From an uncultured Chlorobiaceae bacterium (GTDB lineage Bacteria; Bacteroidota; Chlorobiia; Chlorobiales; Chlorobiaceae), in NCBI GenBank assembly GCA_903895195.1, contig CAITSZ010000005.1:1-64000 (forward strand): 64,000 nt of DNA, in the 5' to 3' direction. The position numbers and the translations under genes were made by a program. Numbering within the stretch: the first letter of the stretch is position 1; each line of letters starts with the position of its first letter. This document shows positions 2,167 through 12,545 of this stretch, one piece after another. The notes under the pieces were generated by a model. It searched no databases. It was given only the letters and a program-made list of their open reading frames with translations, and was not told the origin of the DNA.

Positions 2167-2680
2167 ACGGGGGCCAGTGAGTTAATTGAATATATATGAT
2201 GTAATTTTTAAACAAAATATACCAAGCCACCAAGCGAGTCAAGGCATTAATTATCATTTTTTTGGCACATTTTCTCTCAAGGCAAAAACTCCATCTTTTT
2301 ATATTTTGGCCAGATAAATTAATTATAGGGCTTCTGTTTTTGAGGTTTACTTCTTGGTTTGTGTCCGCTCAAATTTTTTAGGTTCAGGATTGATAAGAGG
2401 AGGATGCTGCCGCATCAGGGGGCGTTTTTGGAGTTGCCGAATTTTGTGAAGCTGCTGGTTGGCAGTGGGAAAAAAAGTGCTGAGACGCGAGTGCTGAGGG
2501 AAATCGGTTGTTGCAGTTGGAGGTGGGCAGTGAAGAAAGTAACGTGATGAGGAGAAGGAAGGGATTTAGTCATTATTGTAATCTCGCGGAGTAATGAAAC
2601 TCTATTGATGGAAAAACTTATATTTGACGAAAAGATGACCTTTTAACGGAAAGTCTTTATAATTGAGAGTTTAAGTGCTC
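2167..2680. other. gene-poor spacer upstream of modE
   Basis: An AT-rich 5' half with no convincing ORF. Bases ~2455-2540 contain degenerate copies of the GGCAGTT/G heptamer seen in the coding repeats at 10.9, 11.1 and 22.3 kb (GGTTGGCAGTGGG, GCAGTTGGAGGTGGGCAGT). A 62-codon ORF at 2359-2547 is not credible. No promoter or terminator can be supported here. Confidence 0.4.
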
Positions 2681-3493
2681 ATGGCGAAAGGCAAACAAGA
2701 AGAAATAGGGCTTGAGGCCTCGATCTGGTTTCAGAAATCACAGAACAAGTTTCTGGGGGGGGACAGAATTGCCCTGCTTGAAAAAATCGATGAGCTTGGC
2801 TCTATAAACAGCGCTGCGAAAGCCGTGGGAATCAGTTATAAAACTGCATGGCATCTTGTCAATCTGGTCAATAACCTTGCTGAAAAACCTCTTGTGGATC
2901 GAGTTACAGGTGGAAAGGGCGGAGGAGGTACCGTTCTGACAACAGAGGGTAAAAAAGTTATCGAACAGTTTCGGGTTATTCAGGAAGAGCATCGGAAGTT
3001 TCTCCAGAATCTTGAGGGACGTCTCGGAGAAACGAGTAATCTTTATCAATTTCTAAGAAGAATATCAATGAAAATCAGTGCTCGCAACGTCTTTTCAGGA
3101 ACTATTGAAAAAATCACCAAAGGGTCTGTAAACGCTGAAGTCATCCTCAAGATCAGTCCTGAAACCAGCATAGTTTCAATTATTACGAACGGCGCTGTGG
3201 ATAACCTGAGCCTTAAAGAGGGTATGAATGCCTACGCAATCATCAAGTCAAGCTCGATCATTATCGCCCAGGAGCTGCACGATGCCAAATTAAGTGCACG
3301 CAATGTTATCCCGGGAAAAATATGCAAGCTTATTGAAGGTCCTGTAAGCACTGAGGTTGATGTTGAAATAGGTGAAGGTAACGTCATCTCCGCTATTATT
3401 ACCCATGGCAGTTCAGAGAAACTTGGACTGAAAGAGGGTGACACGAGCTGTGTTGTATTCAAAGCGTCGAGCGTTATTCTTGGAGTAAACTAA
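2681..3493 (+). CDS. modE: ModE family molybdate-responsive transcriptional regulator
   Basis: Residues ~10-115 are the ModE-type winged helix (RIALLEKIDELGSINSAAKAVGISYKTAW, then a Gly-rich GGKGGGGTVLT turn). Two tandem Mop/TOBE repeats follow, each opening with SARNVxxG (residues ~130-195 and ~200-268), which bind molybdate at the dimer interface. At ~270 residues it has the size of canonical ModE. In this family the Mo-bound dimer represses molybdate transport genes and adjusts Mo-enzyme genes. No mod operon is adjacent here. The ATG at 2681 is preferred; a GTG two codons upstream is possible. There is no strong ribosome-binding site. Confidence 0.87.
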   Translation: MAKGKQEEIGLEASIWFQKSQNKFLGGDRIALLEKIDELGSINSAAKAVGISYKTAWHLVNLVNNLAEKPLVDRVTGGKGGGGTVLTTEGKKVIEQFRVIQEEHRKFLQNLEGRLGETSNLYQFLRRISMKISARNVFSGTIEKITKGSVNAEVILKISPETSIVSIITNGAVDNLSLKEGMNAYAIIKSSSIIIAQELHDAKLSARNVIPGKICKLIEGPVSTEVDVEIGEGNVISAIITHGSSEKLGLKEGDTSCVVFKASSVILGVN

Positions 3494-3624
3494 GGCTGGT
3501 CGCTAATTCCTTTTTGTCAATTCTGAGATATTTTTCGAATAGATTTCTCATATTCGTTCGAAAGGACCGAGAGGAAATAAATGAACAAAATTGAACTTTT
3601 TTTTGGAAACTTCTGAAAAAAGAG

Positions 3625-3638
3625 TTAACAATTGTTAA
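3625..3638. promoter_or_regulatory. 14-bp perfect palindrome upstream of the cysteine leader
   Basis: TTAACAATTGTTAA is a perfect palindrome 25 bases before the leader ORF start. Its position suits an operator or part of the promoter, but it is AT-rich and could be chance. No protein is identified for it. Confidence 0.3.
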
Positions 3639-3661: not shown

Positions 3662-3778
3662 TCATGAAATCACAGGCCTCGACAATCTTCATAATGTGCT
3701 GCTGCTGTTGCGGATCGCAGAAACATTCTGACAAAAGGATATCGGGGAGCACGACGTAGCACACTCATGATTTCATGA
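3662..3778 (+). repeat. 11-bp inverted repeat bracketing the leader ORF
   Basis: TCATGAAATCA (3662-3672) is perfectly complementary to TGATTTCATGA (3768-3778). The left arm contains the ATG of the leader ORF. In RNA the two arms would close a ~95-nt loop holding the whole ORF and hide its start codon. The right arm ends 16 bases before the terminator stem. Confidence 0.5.
3664..3759 (+). CDS. putative cysteine-sensing leader peptide, 31 aa, five consecutive Cys codons
   Basis: ATG at 3664, stop TAG at 3757-3759. Codons 12-16 (3697-3711) are TGC TGC TGC TGT TGC, directly after a second in-frame ATG at 3694, and are followed by Gly. The ORF ends 35 bases before an intrinsic terminator (3795-3830), which precedes a DUF4395 gene, a tRNA-Cys and cysteine/methionine sulfhydrylation genes. 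Poly-Cys short ORFs acting as cysteine attenuators are known from mycobacteria. By analogy, ribosomes stalled on the Cys codons during cysteine shortage would alter folding downstream. No clear ribosome-binding site is visible, so translation is not certain. Confidence 0.55.
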   Translation: MKSQASTIFIMCCCCCGSQKHSDKRISGSTT

Positions 3779-3794
3779 AGTACGTAAAGTCTTT

Positions 3795-3830
3795 AAAGCC
3801 GGTTCTGAATGTCAGAGCCGGCTTTTTTTA
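3795..3830 (+). terminator. intrinsic terminator, possibly an attenuator
   Basis: AAAGCCGGTTCTGA / ATG loop / TCAGAGCCGGCTTT forms a 14-bp stem with one G-U pair, followed by a T-run. It lies 45 bases before the DUF4395 start and after a short Cys-rich ORF, so it ends a short leader transcript. It fits an attenuator for the sulfur genes downstream. Confidence 0.85.
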
Positions 3831-3874
3831 TTTCGACTAATAATTCATAAAACGATAACCAGAGGATAATAATT

Positions 3875-4345
3875 ATGTCAGCAACACAAACACCGGATAC
3901 ATGCGTGGGTATTCCGATACCGATTGTCAAACTGAACAGGTGGGTACTGCTCGTGGGCATATCGACTGCTATTATCATTCAGCAGCCGATAATAACCACC
4001 GCGCTGTTTTTTATCATTGCGTCTGCTGTAGCGTTTGGCAAAACCGGCAGCCTCATTTACATCATCGGATCACGCATTTTTGCCCGGCAGAATAAAACCG
4101 CTCCCACTGAAGATCCCAGACTGATGCGGTTCAATAACTCCATCGCAGCAATTTTACTTGGAGGTTCACAGATCGCTTTTCTGGCAGGGGCCCCTCTCGC
4201 CGGATGGATACTATCAGGGTTTGTTGCCGTTGCGGCGACAGTTGCTCTCCTGGGATTCTGCTTTGGATGTTTCCTGTTTTACCAGTTTAATCTGCAACGA
4301 TACAAATTCTTCGGCACCCAGCAGGTAAAACAAGAGGGAAACTAA
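3875..4345 (+). CDS. DUF4395 family integral membrane protein
   Basis: 156 residues with about four hydrophobic segments (~28-48, 50-75, 95-118 and 120-142). The DUF4395 pattern is clear: an N-terminal DPR-containing cytoplasmic loop (TEDPRLMRFNNS) and a last helix with a CFGC motif near the end (GFCFGCFLFYQ). Family members are often found beside rhodanese, thioredoxin or sulfur-trafficking genes, and the paired Cys may serve thiol or sulfane-sulfur chemistry; both points are inference. GAGG ~10 bases upstream supports the ATG at 3875. It is the first full gene after the poly-Cys leader and terminator, and the tRNA-Cys starts 13 bases past its stop. Confidence 0.8.
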   Translation: MSATQTPDTCVGIPIPIVKLNRWVLLVGISTAIIIQQPIITTALFFIIASAVAFGKTGSLIYIIGSRIFARQNKTAPTEDPRLMRFNNSIAAILLGGSQIAFLAGAPLAGWILSGFVAVAATVALLGFCFGCFLFYQFNLQRYKFFGTQQVKQEGN

Positions 4346-4358
4346 GTTACATTTTCGA

Positions 4359-4433
4359 GGCGACGTGGGTGAGAGGTTCAAACCGGGGTCTGCAAAACCT
4401 ATATTAATCGCAAGTTCGAATCTTGCCGTCGCC
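4359..4433 (+). tRNA. tRNA-Cys (GCA), aberrant, inside the sulfur gene cluster
   Basis: The acceptor stem GGCGACG/CGTCGCC is perfect. The T arm GCAAG-TTCGAAT-CTTGC is perfect. The anticodon loop is CTGCAAA, with anticodon GCA at 4392-4394 (tRNA positions 34-36). Oddities: the D stem is only 3 bp (GGT/ACC) and shifted by one base; the anticodon stem has an unpaired G27-A43 and a G-U; the variable region is 8 nt instead of 4-5; the base after the acceptor stem (discriminator) is G, not the U normally needed by cysteinyl-tRNA synthetase; and CCA is not encoded (GCAT follows). It lies between DUF4395 and metY on the same strand. It may be a working minor tRNA, a regulatory tRNA mimic or a decaying copy. 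Confidence 0.72.
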
Positions 4434-4492
4434 GCATGTTAGAGTGGATTAACTTTTTGACAAAACAACAAACAAAACAAGGAGTATTACCG

Positions 4493-5824
4493 ATGAGTGA
4501 AAACAATTACCGCTTTGAAACTCTGGCCCTTCATGCCGGCCAGACTATTGATGCAACCCTTTCGCGTGGAGTGCCGGTTTACCGGACAAGTTCCTATCTC
4601 TTCAAGAACACGGAACATGCAGCAAACCTTTTTGCCTTGAAAGAACTTGGCAATATCTATACAAGATTGATGAACCCGACTACCGATGTCCTTGAACAGC
4701 GGGTCACACAGCTTGAAGGCGGCGCAGCTTCGGTTGCACTGGCATCAGGGACTGCAGCAATATTTAATGCCATTATCACACTGGCCGAAGCTGGCGACGA
4801 AATCGTTTCGGCAAACAACCTCTACGGCGGAACCTATACCCAGTTTGATGCCATTCTCCCAAAACTTGGCATTAACGTCAAGTTTGTAGACCCGAAAGAT
4901 CCTGCCAATTTTGAACGTGCAATCACGGACAAGACAAGAGCAATTTTCATTGAAACCATAGGCAACCCTGTACTCGACTACACCGATGTCAAGGCCATTG
5001 CAGAGGTCGCTCACCGCAACGGACTTCCGCTGATTGTTGATGCAACCTTCACTACTCCTTATCTGCTGAAAACAATAGAACTCGGGGCTGATATCGTTAT
5101 CAACTCTCTCACCAAATGGCTTGGAGGTCATGGAGCCGGTATTGGTGGAATCATTACCGATGCGGGACGTTTCAATTGGAAAGGCGGACGTCACCCTCTC
5201 TTTACCGAACCAGACAAAAACTATCACGGACTTCGCTGGGCCATCGACCTTCCTGAACCGCTTGCTCCGATTGCATTTGCCCTTCGGGTTCGTACAGTAC
5301 CGCTAAGAAACCTTGGTGCTGCCATTTCACCTGATAACTCATGGATATTTATTCAGGGAATCGAAACCCTGCCTCTCAGAGTGGCCCGTCATTCAGAAAA
5401 CGCTCTCATAGTTGCCGAACATCTTTCGCAACATCCGGAAGTTGCATGGGTACGCTATCCTGGACTGAAAACTGATCCTTCATACCCGACTGCTTCAAAA
5501 GATCTGAAAAAAGGCTTTGGCGGAGTTGTTGTGTTTGGAGTAAAGGGCGGATATGATGCGGCAGTCAAAATCATTGATAACATCAAGCTCTTCTCGCATC
5601 TGGCCAACGTCGGCGATGCCAAGAGCCTTATTCTCCACCCTGCAAGCACTTCACACAGCCAGCTCTCATCCGAGCAGCAGCTCCAGAGCGGTCTTTCGCC
5701 TGATCTGATTCGCCTGTCTGTCGGACTGGAACATCCGGATGACCTGATTGAGGCTCTTGATGAGGTGCTTCATACAGAGGAGACACAAAAAGCAAGCTGG
5801 TTATCGAAGCTGATCAAGAAGTAG
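4493..5824 (+). CDS. metY: O-acetylhomoserine (thiol)-lyase, PLP-dependent
   Basis: A 443-residue member of the Cys/Met metabolism PLP family. It opens with FETLALHAGQ, carries NLYGGTY, and has the PLP lysine at about residue 208 (SLTKWLGGHG). The longer insertion around the FNWKGGRHPLF segment and the total length (~430-445) match MetY-type sulfhydrylases better than cystathionine gamma-synthases (~380). MetY makes homocysteine from O-acetylhomoserine and sulfide in the cytoplasm. GGAG 8 bases upstream supports the ATG at 4493; an upstream in-frame extension would run into the tRNA. It stands directly behind the tRNA-Cys and ahead of a hairpin at 5856-5919. Confidence 0.92.
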   Translation: MSENNYRFETLALHAGQTIDATLSRGVPVYRTSSYLFKNTEHAANLFALKELGNIYTRLMNPTTDVLEQRVTQLEGGAASVALASGTAAIFNAIITLAEAGDEIVSANNLYGGTYTQFDAILPKLGINVKFVDPKDPANFERAITDKTRAIFIETIGNPVLDYTDVKAIAEVAHRNGLPLIVDATFTTPYLLKTIELGADIVINSLTKWLGGHGAGIGGIITDAGRFNWKGGRHPLFTEPDKNYHGLRWAIDLPEPLAPIAFALRVRTVPLRNLGAAISPDNSWIFIQGIETLPLRVARHSENALIVAEHLSQHPEVAWVRYPGLKTDPSYPTASKDLKKGFGGVVVFGVKGGYDAAVKIIDNIKLFSHLANVGDAKSLILHPASTSHSQLSSEQQLQSGLSPDLIRLSVGLEHPDDLIEALDEVLHTEETQKASWLSKLIKK

Positions 5825-8789: not shown

Positions 8790-10247
8790 ATGGCAAACCC
8801 ACAACAGGAACCCAGCAGTCTTTTACAGCGCAGTGTAACGACGCATGTCGCAAGAAATCTTGCGAATACGACCAAGACCCCGCCACAGATGATGTCCATA
8901 ACCCCGAGATGGCTGTTGAAGCTGCTTCCGTGGGTTCATGTTTCATCGGGCACCTATAGAGTTAACCGTACTAAAATAGAACTGCAGAAACCCGAACGTA
9001 TCGGGATAGATTTTCATGAAGGGATCGCATCATTCAGGCCTGAAGCTCTGAAAAGCATTCCGCTTTTTGCATCTTTTGAGGATGATATTATTGCCAGAAT
9101 AGCCGGCAAGTTTGTGCTTGAAGAGGCTGAACTCGGCAATACACTGATCCTTGAAGGTGAAGACCGTCATAAGATATTCATCATTGCACACGGTCAGGTT
9201 GAAATTTTAAGCAAGGGTCTGCATGGAGAAGATCTCCGTATCGCCCTGCTTTCTGAAGGTGAGTACTTCGGCGACGAGGATCTTGTTTCCGAAAAGCCAT
9301 CATCGGTCACCATCCGCACCATTACTCCAGGCTCCTTCTTCTCACTATCGAGCCTCGATATTAACAGGCTGCTAAAGGAATCGCCTGCTCTGAAAGAGTC
9401 GTTCCAGAAAAGGGTCGAAGAGTACCTGAAAATACGCTCCACCGTCAACACTCACGGTGAAAAGCACATTGACCTTGTCGCCGGGTTTGCTGAAAATGTT
9501 GAGATTCCTGAGACCTACGTGGATTACTCGAACAAGCCTCGGGAATATTCTCTTCAGGCTATTCAAACTGTTGTCCGTGTTCATACCCGCGTTTCGGACC
9601 TCTACAATGAGCCGTACAACCAGATAGAGCAGCAGATGCGCCTGACTATCGAGGGTATCAAAGAGCGTCAGGAGTGGGAGTTCATCAATAACAGGGAGTT
9701 CGGCCTGCTTCATTCTGCAGATCCCGGGCAGCGTATCAGTACCCGGTACGGGACACCGACACCTGATGACCTTGACGATCTGCTCACCAAAGTGTGGAAA
9801 AAGCCGGCATTCTTTATCGCCCACCCGAAAGCAATTGCTGCTTTTGAGCGTGAATGCACATGGCGAGGTGTTCCACCTGCCACCATCAACCTCTTTGGAA
9901 CTCCTGTTCTCACATGGCGTGGTGTGCCGCTTATTCCGAGCGACAAAATTGAAATCAAGAAGAACAACAAGTCGAGTCATGGTACGACGAGCATTATTCT
10001 CGTTCGTGTAGGCGAAAACGAGCAAGGTGTAGTGGGACTGCATCAGGCGGGAATTCCCGGCGAAATCAGCCCAAGCCTCTCAGCCAGACTGATGGGACTC
10101 GACAAGCTTGGTGTCGCTTCTTATCTTCTGACACTCTATTCTTCACTTGCCGTTCTGACCGATGATGCTCTTGCTGTTCTTGAGAATGTTGAGGTTGGCT
10201 ACTATCACGATTATGAACACCGCAAGTCAGCCTCCAAAACAAAATAG
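8790..10247 (+). CDS. family 2 encapsulin shell protein with inserted cNMP-binding-like domain
   Basis: 485 residues. Residues ~15-62 (SVTTHVARNLANTTKT, WLLKLLPWVHVSSGTYRVNR) and ~240-470 (VVRVHTRVSDLYNEPYNQ, QEWEFINNREFGLLH, PTPDDLDDLL, FFIAHPKAI, CTWRG, GVVGLHQAGIPGEI, SYLLTLY, ALAVLENVEVG) are the HK97-fold of family 2 (SrpI-like) encapsulins, which build ~25-nm icosahedral protein shells. Residues ~88-205 are a CAP-type cyclic-nucleotide-binding-like insert, as in the 2B subtype. Its phosphate-binding cassette (FGDEDLVSEKPSSVTI) lacks the usual Arg, so cAMP binding is doubtful. The gene behind it encodes a SufS-type desulfurase with a disordered N-terminus, the classic cargo of family 2 shells. 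Confidence 0.92.
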   Translation: MANPQQEPSSLLQRSVTTHVARNLANTTKTPPQMMSITPRWLLKLLPWVHVSSGTYRVNRTKIELQKPERIGIDFHEGIASFRPEALKSIPLFASFEDDIIARIAGKFVLEEAELGNTLILEGEDRHKIFIIAHGQVEILSKGLHGEDLRIALLSEGEYFGDEDLVSEKPSSVTIRTITPGSFFSLSSLDINRLLKESPALKESFQKRVEEYLKIRSTVNTHGEKHIDLVAGFAENVEIPETYVDYSNKPREYSLQAIQTVVRVHTRVSDLYNEPYNQIEQQMRLTIEGIKERQEWEFINNREFGLLHSADPGQRISTRYGTPTPDDLDDLLTKVWKKPAFFIAHPKAIAAFERECTWRGVPPATINLFGTPVLTWRGVPLIPSDKIEIKKNNKSSHGTTSIILVRVGENEQGVVGLHQAGIPGEISPSLSARLMGLDKLGVASYLLTLYSSLAVLTDDALAVLENVEVGYYHDYEHRKSASKTK

Positions 10248-10269
10248 AAAGAGACCGAATAACAGCTAT

Positions 10270-10308
10270 AAAGACAACCTTGTCCTGCTTAAGAGGAAGG
10301 TTGTCTTT
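10270..10308 (+). terminator. hairpin between shell and cargo genes
   Basis: AAAGACAACCTT (10270-10281) and AAGGTTGTCTTT (10297-10308) form a perfect 12-bp stem with a 15-nt loop, 23 bases after the encapsulin stop and 21 before the desulfurase ATG. The U-tract is only three bases, so termination is probably partial. It could set the shell-to-cargo ratio or act as an mRNA processing site. Confidence 0.55.
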
Positions 10309-10328
10309 ATGGATTACCATTGTGAGTT

Positions 10329-12545
10329 ATGCCGAGAGAATATGAGCAAGAATACATGCCGGGAATCGAAAGTGAAGCGCTGAACCCGGTACTGATTGCA
10401 CAGATTGCAAGCCGTCTGTTCAATGAAGCCCCAGAAGCGGGCAGTGTTCCGAAATATGAAACTGATGCTCCAGGAGCTCCTTCGGCACTTGCCGAAAGTG
10501 TGCAGGATAAAACGACATTCGGGGGGGAAACAGGGAATCATCTTCCTCTCGAGGAACTGCCTTTACACCCGAATCTGCCTTATTTTGCTGACGAGGTTCC
10601 AGCACAACCGGAACATGATTTTTATTTTCTTCCTGGTACACATGAAAAAAAACAGGAACCGCTGGGGCATCATGCCAATAAATTGACCGAACAGCAGAAC
10701 TATTCTGAAAACACAGACGGTTCTTACGGACTCGACCAGTTCATTAGGCGCAGCCTGCCTCCCAAGCCGGAAACAACTGAAACTTTTGCAGGAAACAATC
10801 CTGAAAACATTGGTCCGTTTTTCACAATATTGAACGCCGGACTTCCAGCTGATGACGATGTTTCTTTCAGGCTGCTCTATTCCGCAGCTCAAAGGCAGTC
10901 GACAGTGGACAGTGGGCAGCCGGGGGTGAGCAGTGGGCAGTCGGCAGTTGGCAGTCGGCAGCCGGAAATAAACCTGCTGGAGCAGCTTCCACAGATACCG
11001 GGTTCGACTGGCGGTACTGAGGAAGGAGAGTGCTATGCACAAAAGCTTTACAGAACCTTTGAGCAGGAGCAGGGCAGCCCGAATCTTGATGCGGTGTTTC
11101 AGATGCTGCGCGGTGGGCAGTCGGCAGTTGGCAGTGAACAGTTGGCAGTTGGCAGTCGGCAGTTGGCAGGTTCAGGAGCGCCTGAGCTTCCGGGGAAGGC
11201 TCCGGCTCCGGTATGGCCTAATGGAATTACGGAGACACTGGGCAGCGGTTCGCTGCCGTTCAGCTTGCCTGATGCTCCCAAGGAGCCTTATTACTTTTTG
11301 CGTGAGCCTAAAGCGCCGATTCATCAGCCTGAAGGGTTTGACGTGCTTACCATTCGTAAGGACTTCCCTGTCCTTCACCAGAAGATTCATGGTAAACAGC
11401 TTGTCTGGTTTGATAATGCGGCAACAACACAGAAGCCGCTCAGCGTTATCAATGCTGTGGCTCAATTTTATGCGAACGATAACTCGAACATTCATCGCGG
11501 GGCACACACCCTTGCAGCCCGTGCCACAGATGCCTATGAAGGTGCTCGAGAGAAAATAAGGCAGTTCATTGGTGCAGGGTCAGCTTCGGAAATTATTTAT
11601 GTAAGAGGGACTACTGAAGGGGTAAACCTTGTTGCCCAGACCTGGGGGCGGAAGTTTATCCAGCCGGGTGATGAGATTGTGCTCTCAATCCTTGAGCACC
11701 ATGCCAATATTGTTCCGTGGCAGATGCTTGCTCAGGAAAAAGGCGCCCGCATCAAGGTTGTGCCGGTGAACGACCGGGGCGAGATCATCATGGAAGAGTA
11801 CACGAAACTGCTCGGACCTCGCACAAAGTTTGTTTCACTGACTCAGGCTTCAAACGGCCTTGGAACCATTTTGCCGGTCAGGGAGATGATACAGCTGGCC
11901 AAGCGGTTCGACGCAAAGGTGCTGGTTGACGGGGCACAGTCGGTCGCGCATATACCGGTTAATGTGCAGGATCTCAATGCCGATTTCTTTGTTTTTTCAG
12001 GTCACAAGATTTTTGGACCGACAGGTATCGGAGTGGTCTACGGAAAGAGGGAACTGCTTGAGATTATGCCTCCATGGCAGGGCGGTGGAAACATGATTCA
12101 GGATGTGCGTTTTGAGGAGACCATCTACAATGAAGCACCCGCCAAGTTTGAAGCTGGAACACCTTCTATCGGCGATGCTATCGGACTTGGAGCTGCGCTT
12201 GACTATGTGCGGAAAATCGGGCTTGACAACATTGCCCGTTATGAGCATGAGCTGACGGAGTATGCCACAGAGAAACTCATCAGGATTCCGGGACTGCGCA
12301 TCATCGGCACTGCCCGCAACAAGGTTGGTGTGGTATCGTTTGTGCTGAACAAGCTGCCCAATGAAGAGGTCGGCAAACTGCTTGACCGCGAGGGCATTGC
12401 TGTCCGAACTGGTCACCATTGCTCGCAGCCATCGTTACGCAGGTTCGGCGTTGAAGGGACCATTCGCCCTTCGCTGGCTTTTTACAATACCAAGGATGAG
12501 ATCGACCGGCTTGCTGAGGTGATCAATCACATCCAGCGGCGATAA
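10329..12545 (+). CDS. SufS-type cysteine desulfurase with long N-terminal encapsulation region
   Basis: 738 residues, against ~405 for SufS. Residues ~337-738 are the full class V aminotransferase fold: FDNAATTQKP, the EHHANIVPW substrate motif, PLP Lys560 (SGHKIFGPTG) and the persulfide Cys698 (TGHHCSQP). The first ~335 residues are low-complexity, Pro/Glu/Gln-rich and presumably disordered, with recurring aromatic motifs (FYFLP, YYFLREP) and two heptamer-encoded tracts (residues ~189-212 and ~263-281). Such N-terminal extensions carry desulfurases into family 2 encapsulins. It removes sulfur from cysteine to give alanine and a protein persulfide. A start four codons later than an alternative Met is possible; the ATG at 10329 is kept. 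Confidence 0.92.
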   Translation: MPREYEQEYMPGIESEALNPVLIAQIASRLFNEAPEAGSVPKYETDAPGAPSALAESVQDKTTFGGETGNHLPLEELPLHPNLPYFADEVPAQPEHDFYFLPGTHEKKQEPLGHHANKLTEQQNYSENTDGSYGLDQFIRRSLPPKPETTETFAGNNPENIGPFFTILNAGLPADDDVSFRLLYSAAQRQSTVDSGQPGVSSGQSAVGSRQPEINLLEQLPQIPGSTGGTEEGECYAQKLYRTFEQEQGSPNLDAVFQMLRGGQSAVGSEQLAVGSRQLAGSGAPELPGKAPAPVWPNGITETLGSGSLPFSLPDAPKEPYYFLREPKAPIHQPEGFDVLTIRKDFPVLHQKIHGKQLVWFDNAATTQKPLSVINAVAQFYANDNSNIHRGAHTLAARATDAYEGAREKIRQFIGAGSASEIIYVRGTTEGVNLVAQTWGRKFIQPGDEIVLSILEHHANIVPWQMLAQEKGARIKVVPVNDRGEIIMEEYTKLLGPRTKFVSLTQASNGLGTILPVREMIQLAKRFDAKVLVDGAQSVAHIPVNVQDLNADFFVFSGHKIFGPTGIGVVYGKRELLEIMPPWQGGGNMIQDVRFEETIYNEAPAKFEAGTPSIGDAIGLGAALDYVRKIGLDNIARYEHELTEYATEKLIRIPGLRIIGTARNKVGVVSFVLNKLPNEEVGKLLDREGIAVRTGHHCSQPSLRRFGVEGTIRPSLAFYNTKDEIDRLAEVINHIQRR
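10894..10963 (+). repeat. heptanucleotide tandem repeat, 10 units, inside the desulfurase gene
   Basis: Ten consecutive 7-bp units of the type GGCAGTC/G/T (10894-10963); seven fit N-G/A-CAGT-N closely and three are degenerate. Because 7 and 3 are coprime the peptide repeats every 21 bases, reading ..SSGQSAVGSRQP... It lies in the disordered N-terminal part, where length changes would be tolerated. Confidence 0.85.
11116..11171 (+). repeat. heptanucleotide tandem repeat, 8 units, second tract in the desulfurase gene
   Basis: Eight 7-bp units (GGCAGTC, GGCAGTT, GGCAGTG, AACAGTT, GGCAGTT, GGCAGTC, GGCAGTT and a degenerate last unit) encode [18 protein letters not shown]. Reading phase is the same as in the first tract and in the sucB tract at 22249-22311. 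Confidence 0.88.

Follow-up and report, generated by a model that had tools for sequence, protein, structure and literature searches.

The leader that precedes a DUF4395 gene in the window (i.e., the whole 64,000-nt stretch of DNA analysed here, from an uncultured Chlorobiaceae bacterium) is very probably a ribosome-mediated transcription attenuator that senses charged tRNA-Cys, with a run of five Cys codons serving as its sensor, a reading built on sequence comparison and modelled RNA folds. Since like devices lie ahead of other sulfur-acquisition operons, the window attenuator would be one member of a probable multi-operon, ribosome-mediated cysteine-sensing regulon in Chlorobiaceae. The features referred to throughout are as follows.

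3602-3638, + strand: putative promoter/operator block, TTTGGAAA at about 3602-3609 and then the 14-bp palindrome TTAACAATTGTTAA at 3625-3638; conserved in nearly all relatives
3662-3672, + strand: segment A, the start-codon region, predicted to pair with 3768-3778 (11/11 complementary; own-vs-cross p=0.04, weak)
3664-3759 (stop included), + strand: leader ORF of 31 codons, MKSQASTIFIMCCCCCGSQKHSDKRISGSTT, from ORF translation; length and stop position kept in relatives
3678-3689, + strand: segment 1 (B), the predicted protector, immediately 5' of the Cys run, pairing with segment 2 if ribosome-free (own-vs-cross p=0.004)
3697-3711, + strand: proposed sensor, five Cys codons in a row (TGC TGC TGC TGT TGC)
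3736-3746, + strand: segment 2 (D2), predicted 5' strand of the antiterminator, in the last third of the ORF (duplex, fold and alignment tests)
3765-3780, + strand: linker with conserved CATGATTTCATGAAGTAC, forming a small CATG-ATTT-CATG hairpin between segments 2 and 3 or pairing with the start region
3795-3808, + strand: segment 3, terminator 5' arm, of which 3799-3806 may alternatively pair with segment 2
3812-3831, + strand: segment 4, terminator 3' arm (3812-3825) and U-tract (changes on both sides of the stem; terminator scan)
3875-4345, + strand: DUF4395 membrane protein (PF14340, by Pfam), the first gene under the proposed control
4359-4435, + strand: divergent tRNA-Cys(GCA) within the operon (ARAGORN, Rfam)
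4493-5824, + strand: metY-like O-acetylhomoserine/serine sulfhydrylase (PF01053, Cys_Met_Meta_PP, by Pfam), found 3' of DUF4395 at most leader-bearing loci

The original prediction described a 31-codon ORF with five Cys codons at 3697-3711 and a 14-bp terminator stem 35 nt past its stop codon, and both descriptions stand: the ORF's coordinates and codons are as claimed, and the stem is present, 93% complementary and followed by a U-tract. The downstream genes that it named (DUF4395, tRNA-Cys, metY, cysK, cysE and a desulfurase-encapsulin pair) were borne out by Pfam and ARAGORN; beyond metY, Pfam identifies a LuxR-type response regulator, PALP (cysK), a cysE-like hexapeptide transferase, a SrpI-type encapsulin and an aminotransferase-V desulfurase. 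Among the genes after the leader, metY, cysK, the cysE-like gene and tRNA-Cys fit the metabolism of the amino acid proposed to be sensed, and a sulfate-binding protein and other genes at further loci are in keeping with this. The 15-mer consisting of five TGY codons occurs only three times in the 2.49-Mb genome, and no other short ORF in the 64-kb window combines a terminator with at least three consecutive Cys codons. Compared with shuffled sequence, the leader as a whole has the better fold (z -3.8), and no Shine-Dalgarno sequence is visible ahead of its ATG. In Rfam, the leader region had no family match, its weak matches all lying far below the gathering score, and the tRNA alone matched a family; a plasmid search gave no match. 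Two neighbors of the leader may be described in passing. At 2675-3493 lies a ModE-like regulator (an HTH and two TOBE domains), which is found immediately 5' of the attenuator at many loci, and at 8790-12545 a SrpI-type (family 2A) encapsulin with a cNMP-binding domain adjoins a cysteine desulfurase whose long N-terminal extension contains near-repeats.

The arrangement is widely kept among relatives. DUF4395 was found in 57 of 61 Chlorobiaceae genomes, with most copies preceded by a short Cys-codon ORF and a terminator. The Cys run comprises three to seven consecutive codons in most relatives, both TGC and TGT being used (the leader of C. ferrooxidans DSM 13031, loci L021/L215, is MKAMTSNIICTSCCCCGMQSNSDTGIYRRRL), and loci with leader and terminator have two to seven in-frame Cys codons, the exception being the distant paralog L053 with one. 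Distant members carry two to five scattered Cys codons in ORFs of similar length, and in these leaders TGY stands in frame at 35/380, relative to 20/367 and 11/367 in the other two frames. The geometry is fixed: leaders run to 28-33 codons at 33 of 35 loci, the distance from the last Cys codon to the stop is mostly 45-48 nt, and the stop lies 26-37 nt from the terminator in 34 of the 35. Outside the Cys run, differences at codon positions 1/2/3 number 86/116/93 and 69/106/102. Flanking codon positions thus drift about equally, and therefore the frame and the Cys codons are conserved while the peptide itself is not, as the leader alignment proposed in the original prediction was meant to reveal. 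As evidence against a cysteine attenuator, that prediction also named close relatives that have lost the Cys codons but kept the downstream genes intact; on examination, no such loss was seen. The leader observation is far beyond chance. DUF4395 genes without a leader occur in several g2 genomes and at L058-L060; leaderless loci mostly also lack metY beside DUF4395, yet L058, L059 and L060 have a metY-like gene.

The original prediction reported no clear antiterminator, and on this point it is corrected by the present analysis, as one exists between 3736-3746 and 3799-3806, albeit short and bulged in the window species. There, the 2:3 helix joins GGA.AUCGG (3737-3745) to CCGGUUCU (3799-3806), and it is predicted to be mutually exclusive both with the terminator and with the segment 1:2 protector. 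Column-wise covariation in the full leader alignment (APC-corrected G-test) was dominated by phylogeny, gave no clear helix and was replaced by duplex tests, in which each species' own pairings were compared with between-species pairings across 26 non-redundant leaders, with segments set by the ORF and terminator. Own-vs-cross energies gave p=1.6e-4 for terminator 3:4, p=0.004 for segments 1:2 and p=0.012 for segments 2:3. These values are uncorrected for the 28 segment pairs tested, and the support for 2:3 therefore comes mainly from a separate stalled-ribosome folding test. When the downstream edge of the modelled ribosome was positioned to mimic a stall at the first Cys codons, the mean probability that segment 2 captures the terminator arm was 0.56, relative to 0.22 in dinucleotide shuffles (z=7.5, p=6e-7), and the linker hairpin appears in this fold. 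Swapping the arms between species gave 0.50 (own 0.56; p=0.006), and the pairing therefore derives mostly from conserved sequence, with modest covariation. The same pairing falls to 0.14 without a ribosome and is impossible with a ribosome at the stop codon, where segment 2 is covered. Little of it is seen in four of the 26 leaders (L015, L025, L027 and L036).

In a 22-sequence alignment, the terminator is paired at 93.8%, and in four of its pairs both sides have changed; the antiterminator is 88% paired, relative to 21-57% when slid, with a covariation score reached by 3 of 500 shuffles. In the window species, the antiterminator has eight pairs with a bulge and a duplex energy of -7.5 kcal/mol, relative to -22.5 kcal/mol for the terminator; given this greater stability of the terminator, the antiterminator would have to act kinetically, by forming first. 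Two other pairings were rejected. The complementarity noted earlier between TGTGCT (3695-3700) and AGCACA (3758-3763) is real, but its proposed role in the fold found no support, with every pair involving the Cys-run segment at p>0.5 in the own-vs-cross-species duplex test. TCTGACA (3727-3733) with the terminator loop or 3' arm (D1:T3) reached a weak p=0.06, and a helix with the 3' arm could only form too late.

By prediction and comparison, then, the leader has the parts of a classical attenuator: an ORF with a run of Cys codons, a terminator between this ORF and the first gene, and an exclusive antiterminator freed by stalling. Under low cysteine, a ribosome would stall at the five Cys codons and mask segment 1 (3678-3689), leaving segment 2 (3736-3746) free to pair with the terminator 5' arm (3799-3806); with the terminator blocked, RNA polymerase would read on into DUF4395, tRNA-Cys and metY. 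With ample cysteine, the ribosome would reach the stop codon and hide segment 2, allowing the terminator to form. Without translation, segments 1 and 2 would pair, together with the start region and linker, and the terminator would again form, as segment 2 would be unavailable. The sequence, its conservation, its geometry, the exclusive pairings and their recurrence were all computed; we infer translation of the ORF, stalling at its Cys codons, antitermination and cysteine control of the genes listed above. With the Cys codons kept in relatives and an antiterminator found with statistical support, the original reading of the leader as a cysteine attenuator is upheld.

Similar leaders are found elsewhere in the same genomes, including before other sulfur operons, which the original prediction had not anticipated. 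A covariance model built from 22 leaders (R1) retrieved additional loci; of those fetched, nearly all showed an in-frame Cys-rich ORF and a terminator, with a gene start close behind. As R1 included 12 nt of the Cys run, a second model (R2) was made that left this run out; at E<=0.001, R2 gave about 11 matches away from DUF4395, of which nine are poly-Cys leaders and one (C42) is a plain terminator. Fewer loci are thus picked up by R2 than by R1. Matches in contigs C42 and C46 of genome G000 (E ~0.001-0.002) and several weaker ones, which lack a Cys leader, were set down as ordinary terminators or chance. Poly-Cys leaders number at least three in the genome of the window itself. For example, contig C37 carries MNSLSSLNNAFINSSSSCCCPLMEADRIPD ahead of a porin-like protein, and contig C32 carries a third leader, MSTLYERNALSAGSCCCQIMECVTIRKSGSC, which scored only E=0.7 with R1 and was recognised by its ORF. 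The protein downstream of the C32 leader resembles, in its N-terminal sequence, the sulfate-binding protein of L288; the no-ribosome fold of this leader retains the antiterminator, leaving its basal state less clear-cut. The genes at second loci encode Porin_O_P-like proteins followed by apparent sulfonate-type binding proteins, BcrAD/BadFG activase, an ABC ATPase near the taurine/sulfonate types, an RND adaptor, radical SAM proteins, a sulfate-binding protein and a NifH-like protein; sulfur roles for the radical SAM, NifH-like, activase and RND adaptor genes are guesses from context. At L268 and L272, the activase and a partner of 400-475 aa stand behind a Cys leader, sometimes as two tandem copies, and may possibly form an enzyme of the double-cubane-cluster type. 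In 25 second-locus leaders, stalled-state pairing was 0.49, relative to 0.24 when shuffled (p=3e-7), a value that is optimistic since the set includes near-relatives, and the last Cys codon usually lies 42-45 nt from the stop.

The arrangement also extends beyond the family, with two non-Chlorobiaceae Bacteroidota genomes carrying a poly-Cys leader, terminator and DUF4395 in the same order. In the MAG 'Bacteroidota bacterium BIN5' (L118/L185/L249), a metY-like gene lies downstream, and a 10-bp antiterminator is predicted in the stalled fold (-29 kcal/mol); L254, from a genome of another family, likewise has a poly-Cys leader, terminator and DUF4395. An Anaerolineae locus (L186), with a short ORF containing CLC and no clear leader architecture, was set aside.

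Three other explanations of the leader were considered. The ribosome stalled on the poly-Cys stretch might instead open the ribosome-binding site of the next gene, that is, act by translational attenuation in the mycobacterial style. The mycobacterial poly-Cys short ORF is indeed a translational sensor according to Canestrari 2020, as cited in PMC13236596, but the leader loci examined have a strong intrinsic terminator, a U-tract and compensatory changes between leader and gene, and the partner of the antiterminator is the terminator arm rather than the DUF4395 start region; this explanation is accordingly judged improbable. It is less probable still that the product of the ORF is itself functional, as a Cys-rich peptide of a metal- or redox-binding kind like the copper-responsive CruR-type leaders, with any effect of the Cys codons exerted through the peptide. 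Contiguous Cys residues could bind metals or become oxidised; however, the flanking residues drift without codon-position bias, the number of Cys varies from three to seven with the run scattered in distant relatives, and the regulated genes serve to take up sulfur and to make Cys and Met rather than to handle metals.

The least likely of the three is that the terminator merely closes an upstream transcript, such as that of the modE-like gene, and that the Cys run is a chance ORF. Intergenic intrinsic terminators are common and a modE-like gene does lie upstream at many loci, but a chance ORF would hardly have its run, frame, length and spacing conserved across a family, and the same architecture recurs at unrelated, modE-free loci and in other Bacteroidota.

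Upstream of the leader, the block at 3602-3638 ends about 25 nt before the ATG; it would overlap the promoter and perhaps bind a regulator. Its palindrome, TTAACAATTGTTAA, is the only copy in the genome and looks like a candidate promoter-level sulfur operator: it persists before DUF4395 even at leaderless loci, as TTAACGATTGTTAA, and palindrome-like sites (no more than one mismatch) lie ahead of the Cys leaders of the porin, the sulfate-binding protein and the HPr/cysK side. Other Cys leaders (sulfonate, radical SAM, activase and NifH-like) have a different upstream motif resembling TTTATGGTAT...TTTAAACGGGATTTAC, which was seen at L268, L273, L275, L281, L284 and L293.

In the window's genome, two Cys-attenuated operons, those of DUF4395 and the porin, are each followed by a divergent tRNA-Cys(GCA) gene. 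The operonic tRNA-Cys as the sole one of the genome was ruled out, as three are present, the third being an ordinary copy on contig C22. Besides the window, divergent tRNA-Cys genes occur at L247 (3155-3229), L266, L267, L270, L277 and L291. The porin locus of relatives has two tRNA-Cys copies, or an intact copy and one with an odd anticodon by ARAGORN, and at L006 the DUF4395-associated copy lacks its middle. We suggest, tentatively, that dispersed Cys-codon attenuators may govern much of the sulfur acquisition of Chlorobiaceae, from sulfate and sulfonate uptake and a porin to metY and the radical SAM, NifH-like and activase genes, with two such operons carrying divergent tRNA-Cys genes. If this were true, the sensor would have partial control over how much of its own signal molecule, tRNA-Cys, is available, or over a specialised tRNA-Cys used only in starvation.

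Several mycobacterial sulfur operons are reportedly under the same kind of poly-Cys sensor. A 2005 study of Actinobacteria predicted Cys leaders that have no obvious terminators (PMC1262725), and mycobacterial poly-Cys leaders act on translation (Canestrari 2020, as cited in PMC13236596). The Chlorobiaceae device shares with these leaderless mycobacterial ORFs and actinobacterial cys leaders a poly-Cys leader ORF as cysteine sensor, but they affect how the next gene is translated or have no obvious terminators, whereas its output is an intrinsic terminator; rather than an absent terminator and a sequestered ribosome-binding site, it has a conserved strong terminator. In Rhodobacterales, uORFC-8-2, a tandem-Cys short ORF with an intrinsic terminator before cysS, has been predicted to act by ribosome-mediated attenuation (PMC8632094). 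Both leaders place tandem Cys codons in a short ORF ahead of an intrinsic terminator; however, uORFC-8-2 has two Cys codons and is found only before cysS in alphaproteobacteria, with no sequence relation to the Chlorobiaceae leader shown, and the latter precedes DUF4395/metY, with no cysS among the regulated genes examined.

The closest resemblance in design is to attenuators of the trp/his/ilv type (e.g., mycobacterial ilvB1; PMC13236596), which likewise have a short ORF enriched in codons for the regulated amino acid, alternative 1:2, 2:3 and 3:4 pairings with an intrinsic terminator, and a stop codon at which a terminating ribosome masks segment 2. Unlike these, the Chlorobiaceae/Bacteroidota device would sense cysteine, and it recurs before many unrelated operons. 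On a stricter view, the Chlorobiaceae leader could be regarded as another leader-peptide attenuator; what is novel is the joining of mycobacterial-style poly-Cys sensing across many operons to a trp-type terminator/antiterminator output. No description of Cys attenuators in Chlorobi was found in the literature searched, which was mostly open-access.

A broad sulfur response assembled from many small attenuators that ribosomes read would parallel, in a distant phylum and through transcription termination, the mycobacterial poly-Cys system. The finding draws attention to the unusual tRNA-Cys genes within the regulated operons, and it provides the green sulfur bacteria with a testable route from cysteine status to the uptake of sulfate and organosulfur compounds.
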